Assembly: GCF_001761545.1 (NCBI RefSeq)
Contig: NZ_CP017326.1
Location: 372,001-436,000, forward strand
Direction of reading: 5' to 3'
Length of the DNA stretch: 64,000 bases
From: Weissella soli
GTDB taxonomy: Bacteria > Bacillota > Bacilli > Lactobacillales > Lactobacillaceae
The notes below the pieces were generated by a model, which saw only the letters and a program-made list of their open reading frames with translations, was not told the DNA's origin and ran no database searches. Position 1 is the first letter of the stretch, and every line of letters begins with the position of its first letter. This document shows, in pieces, positions 50,934-54,403 of this stretch. The translations under genes were made by a program, and so were the position numbers.

Positions 50934-51038
50934 ATTTTTAGATTAAAAAGCAACAAGACGGTCATCAACTGCTGCTTAATTTGATAAAAATTGCGTAGAA
51001 TAACAGTTTTTAAACGCCTAAATGATTGATATATAGGC

Positions 51039-51080
51039 AATTCTCACCAGATTTTTAATATTCTGGTGAGAATTTTTAGT
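51039..51080 (+). terminator. Terminator of the pur operon
   Basis: AATTCTCACCAGA pairs with TCTGGTGAGAATT around a 10-nt loop, followed by TTT and further T-rich sequence. Confidence 0.85.
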
Positions 51081-51098: not shown

Positions 51099-51127
51099 TT
51101 GACGAAAAAAATGAATGCGTCTATAAT
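51099..51127 (+). promoter_or_regulatory. Promoter of the T-box operon
   Basis: TTGACG (51099-51104), a 17-bp spacer, and perfect TATAAT (51122-51127). Transcription would start near 51134, directly before the T-box leader. Confidence 0.8.
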
Positions 51128-51129
51128 TC

Positions 51130-51442
51130 AATTCAACAAATAAATCGTTCAAAAACCGATGAGATGGAGATCAAGTTAGTTGTGCGCGCAAAGAGAGTCC
51201 GGGAGGGTGTGAGCCGGGTCGAACGCAGACTAATAAATGGACCATTGAGGGCTAAGCTGAAAGTTTACAAGTATGCTTAGACGTGAGACATACGTCAGTT
51301 GTCAGTGTATTGTTTGATACATGTGGTTAAAGTGCGAGTTTTATGGAGGTTTTTTAGAGATACTCTATAAAATTCGAATTAAGGTGGCACCGCGGGAAAC
51401 CGTCCTTAACTATCGACTTGGTAGTTTTTGGACGGTTTTTTT
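51130..51442 (+). promoter_or_regulatory. T-box riboswitch, probable tRNA-Trp specificity
   Basis: The leader holds the T-box AAGGTGGCACCGCG (51381-51394). An antiterminator helix, TTAAGG (51379-51384) with CCTTAA (51404-51409), competes with a terminator (51397-51405 with 51430-51438, then T-run). Stem I pairs TTAGT/ACTAA and TGCG/CGCA, and its base pairs ATGG (51164-51167) with CCAT (51242-51245). The 3' side of the specifier loop reads TAAATGGA, giving TGG (51238-51240) followed by a purine. The bulge UGGC would pair its C (51388) with discriminator G73, which bacterial tRNA-Trp has and elongator tRNA-Met lacks. ATG is a weaker alternative specifier. Confidence 0.85.
51397..51442 (+). terminator. 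Regulated terminator of the T-box leader
   Basis: AAACCGTCC (51397-51405) pairs with GGACGGTTT (51430-51438) and is followed by TTTT. It is exclusive with the antiterminator fold. Confidence 0.85.
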
Positions 51443-51468
51443 GTATTAATTTTTTTAGGAGCTTTCTT

Positions 51469-53082
51469 ATGAATAAAGGTACAGGTATCATCGCAGGTGT
51501 TTTGGTTTCATCCGTTTTGTTTGGCGGCACAAGCGTGCAGGCGGCAACAAAAAACAAGGCTATCAATTACACAGTCACTTCAGAGTTGCAAACGCTCAAT
51601 CAGGCAACGGCCGCTGACACTGTATCAGAATCCATTTTGTATAGTACAGGTCAGGGATTGTATCGCATGAATGGTAAGAGCAAAGTGGTTTTGGCCGATG
51701 CCAAGTCGGTTGATATTAGCAAGGATGGTAAAACCTATACCTTCCACTTGAAGTCAGGGTTGCAGTATTCAAATGGTACCAAGGTCACTGCACAGGATTA
51801 CGTTTATGGTTTTCAGCAAACGTTGACGCCAAAGAACCAATCAACCGCGGCCTCATCCGTTTTGGATATTGTCGGTGCCGCAGACTTCTACAATGGTAAG
51901 ACAACGGATTTTAGCACGGTTGGTGTGAAGGCGTTGGATAGCAAGACAGTCCAAATTAAGTTGACAGTGGCTAATCCCGATTTGCCAAAGATTTTGACAG
52001 GTAGTGGTTTCTATCCTGAAAACAAGGCCTTTATTGATAGCACCGATGGCAAGTACGGTTCAACGGCGGCAACCTCGCTTTCTAACGGACCCTACATTTT
52101 GAAGGACTTCAATGGTTCTAGCACCACTTTCAAATTAGTGAAGAATCCAAACTACGTGGATGCAGCAAAGGTGAAGACACCCCAAGTGAACTACACGGTG
52201 GTTAAGGATAATACGACTGGTTACAATTTGTTCCAGAGCGGTAAGGTTGACTACACGACCTTAAATGCCACCCAAGTTAAGTCATTGAAGAAGAGCAAGG
52301 AATATCGTGCTGACAAGACAGAATACACAACGTACATGCAATTTAATTTGAAGCGGAGTGTCTTGAATAACAAGAAGATTCGCCAGGCCATGGAAATTGG
52401 GGTCAATAAGAAGGAATTAGCCAACGACGTTTTGACGGGTAGTTCAACACCAGCAACCACTTTCGCCCCAGCTAATATCCAAACTGATCACAAATCAGGC
52501 AAGGATTTCTCAAAGGCCTACCAAACGACTTATAACCAATACAATGCGAAAAAAGCCGCTAAACTGTTTGCTGCAGGTATGAAGGAAGAGGGTAAGCAGA
52601 CAGCTACCGTCACGATTCTAGCGGCTGATACCAGTGAAGCTAAGGATGTCTCAGTATATTTGAAGGCCCAACTAGAAAAGAACTTGAAGGGGCTCACGGT
52701 AAATATTAAAAACGTGCCCAAGCCAACGTTAATCGCTGATATGCGTGCTGGTAATTTCGACATCGTGTACATCGGATGGGAAGGGGATGCCTCTGGGGTT
52801 ATGAGCTATGAACAGGTGTTCACTTCAGACGGTATTTTCTCATTTGGAAACTATAAGTCAGCTACTTATGATGCTTTAATTAAGAAAGCAAAGACTACCG
52901 ATGCAACCAAAGAAAAGGAACGAGTTGCTGATTTAGGTAAGGCTGACCAAATGTTGCAAAAGGATGCAGCCCTGGCACCACTAGGCTACACCACAACGTC
53001 TGCGTTGCTATCAAAGCAAGTTAAGAATTTGCAAATCAATGCGTATGGCGATGTTGACTTCATGCATGCAGTTAAGAAGTAA
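51469..53082 (+). CDS. Oligopeptide-type substrate-binding protein (SBP family 5) without lipobox
   Basis: The 537-residue extracytoplasmic protein is of the OppA/DppA cluster: SESILYSTGQGLYRM, KDGKTYTFHLKSGLQYSNGTKVTAQDYVYGFQQTL, LSNGPYILKDFN, and the late YIGWEGDASG segment. The signal peptide (residues 1-25, MNKGTGIIAGVLVSSV then GGTSVQA) ends in V-Q-A before Ala26, a type I peptidase site. It has no cysteine, so no lipid anchor, unlike most Gram-positive binding proteins. TAGGAG precedes the ATG at 51469. It is controlled by the T-box and followed after 17 bp by an amidohydrolase. No permease or ATPase is adjacent. Confidence 0.9.
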   Translation: MNKGTGIIAGVLVSSVLFGGTSVQAATKNKAINYTVTSELQTLNQATAADTVSESILYSTGQGLYRMNGKSKVVLADAKSVDISKDGKTYTFHLKSGLQYSNGTKVTAQDYVYGFQQTLTPKNQSTAASSVLDIVGAADFYNGKTTDFSTVGVKALDSKTVQIKLTVANPDLPKILTGSGFYPENKAFIDSTDGKYGSTAATSLSNGPYILKDFNGSSTTFKLVKNPNYVDAAKVKTPQVNYTVVKDNTTGYNLFQSGKVDYTTLNATQVKSLKKSKEYRADKTEYTTYMQFNLKRSVLNNKKIRQAMEIGVNKKELANDVLTGSSTPATTFAPANIQTDHKSGKDFSKAYQTTYNQYNAKKAAKLFAAGMKEEGKQTATVTILAADTSEAKDVSVYLKAQLEKNLKGLTVNIKNVPKPTLIADMRAGNFDIVYIGWEGDASGVMSYEQVFTSDGIFSFGNYKSATYDALIKKAKTTDATKEKERVADLGKADQMLQKDAALAPLGYTTTSALLSKQVKNLQINAYGDVDFMHAVKK

Positions 53083-53099
53083 GCAATGGAGGACCTAAG

Positions 53100-54263
53100 A
53101 TGACAGTAATTCGATATACAAATGCCCGGGTTTTCACGGGTAGTGATAGTGATTATGATGCGACTGAATTAGTCATTGATGATCTCACCGGACGCGTCTT
53201 GCCAAACGATGTGGTCAGTGATCAGACCATTAATTTGAGTAATAAGTATGTTGTGCCGGGTTTGATCAATGCACATACACATATTGTGATGAATCCATTT
53301 GAGCTCACCTCACCGACTGCGAATGTAGTTGTCAGCACCCATCATGCACTGAAGAATTTAAAGCGTAGTTTGATGGCAGGTGTGACCACCATTCGTGATG
53401 TGGGTTCAGCCTTTGATATCGATATTGAGTTAGCAAAATTGGAAGCAGCGGGTGAACTAAGCGCACCGACGATTTTACCATCTGGTGGTGCCATCTCGAT
53501 GACTGGTGGGCATGGTTCAGCCATGGGGATTGAGGTAGATGGACCGGATGAAGCCCGCAAAGCTGCCCGGACTAATTTTGCTAAGGGTGCCAAAAACTTA
53601 AAGCTAATGGTCACCGGTGGAATTAGTAAAGATGGTGAAAAGGAAACGGATATTCAATTGAATGCTGATGAAATAAAAGCGGCTGTCACTGAGGCCCATC
53701 ATAAAGGCTATCCTGTGGCTGCCCATGCGCAAGGAAATGCTGGTATTAAGTTGGCGGTCAAGGCAGGAGTGGACTCAATTGAACATGCGATTTACATGGA
53801 TGAAGAAGCGGTTACGTTGATGTTAACGCACGGCACAGTCATTGTGCCTACATTTAGCGCCCCACTAGCGATTAGCCAACACCGAGAATTACCAACCTGG
53901 TTACATGCCAAAAATGATCCAGTAATTAAGATTCATCGGCAAAGTATTCAGCAAGCGCATGCAGCAGGAATTCCGATTGCCATGGGAACGGATGCGGGGA
54001 CCCCATTTAATGATTTTGCGACCGGGGTCTTTGAGGAATTGCAAATCATGCAAGACATCGGGTTCAAGCCAATTGAAATCCTAGAAGCTGCAACAAAAAA
54101 CGCTGCAAAACTTTTACATTTAGATCAGGTCGTCGGCACTTTGGAAGTGGGTAAATTTGCTGATTTCATTGTGCTAAACCAGAATCCCTTGGTTGATGTG
54201 GCAGCGTACCACGGGGATCGACAAGTATACAAGAAGGGCCGCTTGGTTTACGAACAATCTTAA
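53100..54263 (+). CDS. Metal-dependent amidohydrolase, prolidase/imidazolonepropionase-like group
   Basis: The 387-residue TIM-barrel amidohydrolase has His59-X-His61 in NAHTHIV, a likely carboxylated bridging Lys168 in NLKLMVTGG, His209 in AAHAQGN, His229 in SIEHAIY, and the catalytic Asp298 in GTDAGTP, a complete binuclear metal set. There is no signal peptide. The group includes enzymes splitting Xaa-Pro and other dipeptides as well as ring amides, so the substrate is open. It is co-transcribed with the T-box-controlled binding protein (GGAGG before the ATG), which suggests a peptide or peptide-like substrate. Confidence 0.85.
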   Translation: MTVIRYTNARVFTGSDSDYDATELVIDDLTGRVLPNDVVSDQTINLSNKYVVPGLINAHTHIVMNPFELTSPTANVVVSTHHALKNLKRSLMAGVTTIRDVGSAFDIDIELAKLEAAGELSAPTILPSGGAISMTGGHGSAMGIEVDGPDEARKAARTNFAKGAKNLKLMVTGGISKDGEKETDIQLNADEIKAAVTEAHHKGYPVAAHAQGNAGIKLAVKAGVDSIEHAIYMDEEAVTLMLTHGTVIVPTFSAPLAISQHRELPTWLHAKNDPVIKIHRQSIQQAHAAGIPIAMGTDAGTPFNDFATGVFEELQIMQDIGFKPIEILEAATKNAAKLLHLDQVVGTLEVGKFADFIVLNQNPLVDVAAYHGDRQVYKKGRLVYEQS

Positions 54264-54274
54264 TTCATGTCGCA

Positions 54275-54305
54275 AAGTGCTAGTGAGCTTCACTAGCACT
54301 TTTTT
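54275..54305 (+). terminator. Terminator of the T-box operon
   Basis: AAGTGCTAGTGA-GCT-TCACTAGCACTT is followed by TTTT. Confidence 0.88.
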
Positions 54306-54403
54306 AGTAAATAATCGGGTGGATCATTGAAATTTCAGATTCGTTTTTGGTCTTCATGATACAATTGAAAGATAATTATTCACGAAAAGGACCGTAGCCA
54401 ATC

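Follow-up and report, generated by a model that had tools for sequence, protein, structure and literature searches.

T-box leaders that read tRNA-Trp are known from trp operons, trpS and the TrpXYZ transporter, for example trpX of Streptococcus suis (PMC9382623), and thus govern Trp synthesis, charging and the uptake of free Trp. In Lactobacillales, T-boxes of the Met class have expanded, and T-box specificity has been used to guide the annotation of transporters (PMC2494555). The present analysis likewise assigns uptake genes from the specificity of their T-boxes, and Met T-boxes are the commonest class in the genome studied here, which matches the Lactobacillales expansion; a search of the main text of that work gave no peptide-binding protein paired with an amidohydrolase (PMC2494555). 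Such a combination with a different enzyme occurs in the HDC island of Lactobacillus parabuchneri, where a His T-box precedes the genes of a peptide ABC substrate-binding protein and of an M20 peptidase, and where the authors propose that His-containing peptides are transported and degraded (PMC5313534). As for the cog1228/M38 amidohydrolases, characterised members have been reported to release C-terminal Arg/Lys, Pro, or the hydrophobic residues Ile, Leu, Val, Met, Phe, Tyr and Trp (PMC11342369).

The locus described here lies in a 64,000-nt stretch of the Weissella soli chromosome (hereafter the window), in which a Trp T-box derived from the leader of a trp operon quite probably governs a pair of peptide-scavenging genes in a Trp auxotroph. 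Its regulation is well supported; its substrate we infer. The nearest precedent is the His T-box of L. parabuchneri with its binding protein and M20 peptidase (PMC5313534). Both systems join a T-box to an orphan peptide-binding protein and a peptidase, but the L. parabuchneri system has a CAC (His) specifier and an M20 peptidase where the window has UGG and an M38 amidohydrolase. The window leader, moreover, is tied to a lost biosynthesis operon, and the passages that describe the L. parabuchneri system make no such link. With the known Trp T-boxes the window leader has in common the sensing of tRNA-Trp, and trp-operon leaders carry the octamer TAAATGGA and UGGC; the difference lies in the genes governed, which in the window encode a peptide-binding protein and a hydrolase. 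T-box control and cog1228 enzymes are each already known, and the finding is in that sense of a known kind, while the main texts of the papers searched describe neither the M38 version nor a Trp case. The initial annotation had gone further in stating that no system with this pairing is described. This was too strong, because the T-box/OppA/amidohydrolase arrangement recurs in Lactobacillaceae with other specifiers and the His T-box/M20 case is published (PMC5313534).

All features of the unit lie on the plus strand. The preceding formyltetrahydrofolate ligase-like gene ends in its own terminator at 51034-51080 (hairpin and T run, -18.9 kcal/mol, z -6.3), so the unit is taken to be transcribed separately. 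The best sigma-70 promoter match of the region (TTGACG-17-TATAAT, 11/12 matches) follows at 51099-51127, and a second terminator at 54272-54308 (-18.0 kcal/mol, z -5.0) closes the two-gene unit. Between them, the Rfam T-box model RF00230 matches the leader at 51150-51410 over its full length (1-219) with 94.2 bits, above the gathering score of 93, and E 2.3e-19. The specifier loop and its flanking helices occupy 51163-51246, with 51163-51167 paired to 51242-51246 and an upper helix formed by GTTAGTT and GACTAAT. The antiterminator at 51379-51409 has the canonical fold with a 7-nt bulge, UGGCACC, and an intrinsic terminator follows at 51394-51442 (-23.9 kcal/mol, z -4.0; T run 51436-51442). Antiterminator and terminator have 51394-51409 in common and are mutually exclusive. 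When Stem I was folded without constraints, no T-box structure was obtained (z +0.74). Plain folding was therefore set aside as evidence for Stem I, which is assigned from the covariance model and from comparison with related leaders.

The codon read by the leader was called from the columns of the Rfam alignment, from covariation in the helices and by visual reading, since the first automatic specifier caller was unreliable on divergent leaders. The Rfam alignment (GAAauuca against AAA-UGGA) places the TGG at 51238-51240 in the specifier columns. In the same genome, which holds 19 convincing T-boxes, identical columns read GUA in the valS leader, UUC in the pheS leader and AUG in the leaders of several Met-related genes. 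The T-box bulge UGGC (51385-51388) would pair with a tRNA 3' end GCCA; tRNA-Trp of this genome has the anticodon CCA and carries G73 after its acceptor stem, and among the own-genome leaders compared the UGGC bulge is unique to the window leader. Several proposals of the initial annotation have stood up: that the leader is a T-box, that it offers TGG in the right register, that CCAT (51242-51245) pairs with ATGG just below the specifier, and that the bulge fits G73. Register calibration, G73 of the tRNA and homology to trpDCFBA leaders together strongly support a firm assignment of the leader to tRNA-Trp, as judged from sequence.

That homology emerged from a DNA search of the genus, in which 2 of 28 genomes (G201 and G217) carry homologous leaders, with 72% identity to the window leader over Stem I and 79-80% over the T-box. 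Both precede trpD-trpC-trpF-trpB-trpA, and these two genomes are the only ones of the 28 with trpA. The specifier loop TAAATGGACCA is unchanged in all three leaders, and between the window and the G201 leader four double-sided compensatory changes in the flanking helices keep the pairing. The trpD/trpE leaders of other Lactobacillaceae genera (genes named by inspection) show the same octamer together with UGGC, a bulge that is also present in trpS leaders. Given the homology to trpDCFBA leaders and the recurrence of the octamer, the window leader is a trp-operon leader that has come to precede other genes, a point beyond the reach of the initial annotation; the genes adjoining the leaders do differ between the window locus and G201/G217. 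Both trpA and trpC are absent from the 1.68-Mb genome (99.96% complete), so the organism is a Trp auxotroph in which a trp-operon T-box now precedes a scavenging pair. Regulation has thus outlived the pathway: the cell has kept its sensor for an amino acid it no longer makes, and the response was switched from synthesis to scavenging.

The genes downstream are the pair initially annotated, an OppA-like protein and an amidohydrolase. The first (51469-53082) encodes an OppA-type extracytoplasmic peptide-binding protein of 537 aa that matches PF00496 (SBP_bac_5) at 3e-68, with 231 bits against a gathering score of 32.4, and whose closest solved structure by sequence is 6npo (4e-81). Its structural model (pLDDT 71.6) is too weak to interpret. 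The protein has a signal peptide without a lipobox, as no Cys occurs in the first 35 residues. Six SBP_bac_5 proteins (L149-L154) are encoded in the genome and none has a lipobox, one having a Cys only at position 3; the Levilactobacillus binding proteins, unlike these, do have one (LSGCG motif). Two pairs of Opp-type ATPases are also encoded, and the binding protein, being an orphan, would depend on a shared transporter, for which either pair could serve.

The second gene (53100-54263) encodes an M38/cog1228 amidohydrolase of 387 aa that matches PF01979 (Amidohydro_1) at 1e-42 and, having no signal peptide, should act on imported substrates. The binuclear signature of the family is complete (HxH, bridging Lys, two His, Asp), and the metal ligands H59, H61, K168, H209, H229 and D298 as well as the oxyanion His138 are invariant in 85 homologs. 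The model (pLDDT 92.5) has the amidohydrolase fold, with 3mtw as its best PDB match (Z 51.5, rmsd 2.0 over 377 residues), followed by 3be7 (Z 50.4), 2qs8 (49.9) and 3n2c (48.9). Fold, binuclear ligands and oxyanion His are thus common to the window enzyme and the cog1228/M38 carboxypeptidases Cc2672 (3mtw), Sgx9359b (3be7/3dug), 2qs8, Sgx9260c (3n2c) and ochratoxinase, at DALI-like Z of 43-51 and about 30% identity; one difference is Gln211, which is His in 3be7 and 2qs8. That the nearest structural match, 3mtw, is an Arg/Lys carboxypeptidase counts against a Trp preference, although Z is close among Arg, hydrophobic and Pro enzymes. The score against the Xaa-Pro dipeptidase model NF051886 (236.7) is below the 500-bit NCBIfam cut-off. 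The residues that separate Lys-type from Ile/Leu-type enzymes track the tree, and no tie to the pocket was found for them. The predicted capture and cleavage of a Trp-containing peptide, as the initial annotation proposed, is the best reading and fits the enzyme family, and the conserved active site and carboxypeptidase-type relatives favour release of a C-terminal Trp over cyclic dipeptides as substrates.

T-boxes also stand on related amidohydrolase genes elsewhere in the family. A T-box core with a T run on the same strand, at most 2.7 kb upstream, was found for 49 of 128 distinct Lactobacillaceae relatives of the amidohydrolase, where about 2 of 128 would be expected from the T-box density of the own genome, an estimate to be read with the non-independence of related genes in mind. 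An OppA-like gene likewise lies directly upstream of 49 of the 128, and the order is often T-box, OppA, amidohydrolase. All ten T-boxes tested with Rfam, from eight loci, were confirmed at E 2e-13 or better. From register and helix, an Ile specifier (AUC) was called in Levilactobacillus, Lentilactobacillus, Secundilactobacillus and others, a Leu specifier (CUC) in the first of two tandem Levilactobacillus units, Val (GUA) at L131, Met (AUG) at L138 and Lys (AAA) in 12 leaders; L198 is left out of these calls. For the 12 Lys-read leaders the Rfam register would give GUU, GUC, GCC or GCU, but the bases in question are paired to the other strand and covary, whereas AAA never varies, and Lys is therefore preferred to the alternative of Val or Ala. 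At L140 and L141, a leader read as Lys stands directly ahead of the amidohydrolase with no binding protein. In Levilactobacillus-type genomes (L032, L038, L041, L044, L045 and L199), two units stand in tandem, the first under a Leu T-box and the second under an Ile T-box, and each has a binding protein and an amidohydrolase of its own.

In a tree of the amidohydrolases (one tree, quick method), there are at least seven changes of specifier label and at least eight changes in T-box presence or absence. The window enzyme falls among those of T-box-free congeners, as would fit a separate recruitment of the window T-box. Each specifier seen (Ile, Leu, Lys, Val and Met) stands for an amino acid that characterised relatives remove from the C terminus of their substrates, and the recurrence of this arrangement with differing specifiers points to a family of scavenging units, each specific to one amino acid. 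The balance of this evidence leans, by a narrow margin, toward a broader view in which the specifier of an OppA-amidohydrolase pair would report the amino acid released, T-boxes would have been recruited or re-specified repeatedly, and the leader of the lost trp operon would have been reused here for the same amino acid. Although peptide-binding proteins and cog1228 amidohydrolases abound, the specificity of individual members has rarely been established; here the adjacent RNA element would predict it codon by codon.

In the window, the system probably works as follows. Uncharged tRNA-Trp would form pairs at two places, the UGG of the specifier loop and, by means of GCCA, the UGGC bulge, stabilising the antiterminator so that transcription could read through. 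The binding protein would capture peptides outside the cell, a shared OppBCDF would import them, and the cytosolic amidohydrolase would free C-terminal Trp, which would recharge tRNA-Trp and close the loop.

It is very improbable that the specifier is instead GGA (Gly), AUG (Met), AAU (Asn) or GAC (Asp). Since AAU and GAC fall outside the calibrated register, they carry little weight, and the only register rival is Gly: in a helix scan the GGA register, one G-U pair apart, scores almost as well as UGG. The bulge speaks against it, because UGGC requires G73, whereas the own-genome glyQS leader has UGGA, as expected for U73, and the Met leaders have UGGU; in addition, the trpDCFBA leaders have exactly the loop of the window leader.

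With a Trp specifier accepted, the T-box could still be a stray relic of the lost trp operon, brought to this place by a rearrangement and of no adaptive use. The loss of the trp pathway would fit this, as would the fact that a Trp T-box with a binding protein and an amidohydrolase was seen in one genome only. Yet specifier, bulge, antiterminator, terminator and promoter are all intact and the helices kept pairing through compensatory changes, which makes a relic improbable. A less remote alternative, though still an unlikely one, grants that the T-box senses tRNA-Trp and holds that the pair is a general scavenger which, when induced by a shortage of Trp, takes in mixed peptides and whose amidohydrolase is not Trp-selective. 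OppA proteins are often promiscuous, and congeners carry the pair without any T-box, none having been detected by Rfam in the pair loci scanned. A characterised relative of the enzyme, moreover, takes many C-terminal hydrophobic residues (PMC11342369). Against this, the variety of specifiers on related pairs and the tandem Leu/Ile units within one genome suggest some specialisation.

Several other T-boxes were noticed in the course of this work. The Met elements that dominate the T-box set of the genome (L001, L004, L005, L007 and L009-L012) have as targets, named by inspection, MetQ-like binding proteins, a SAM hydrolase with an ECF-like transporter, a free-methionine sulfoxide reductase-like gene and a MetC-like enzyme. 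One of them, on the minus strand at 1764-1501 of L009 (C1:1074032-1077295), reads Met (AUG) and precedes an M20-like peptidase of 444 aa, also named by inspection, which makes it a second T-box-controlled hydrolase of this genome. At L013 of the same genome (C1:460386-463615), a T-box lies ahead of an amino-acid ABC permease; its specifier looks like CAC (His), and its bulge, UGGA, is a mismatch to C73 of tRNA-His. A T-box-like core at L232, in G215, has the bulge UGGG, which fits C73 (His), and belongs to another gene near a T-box-free pair. Finally, in other Lactobacillaceae, T-boxes with UGGC bulges stand in runs of two or three before binding proteins of the polar-amino-acid type (L259, L260, L261, L266, L267 and L270).
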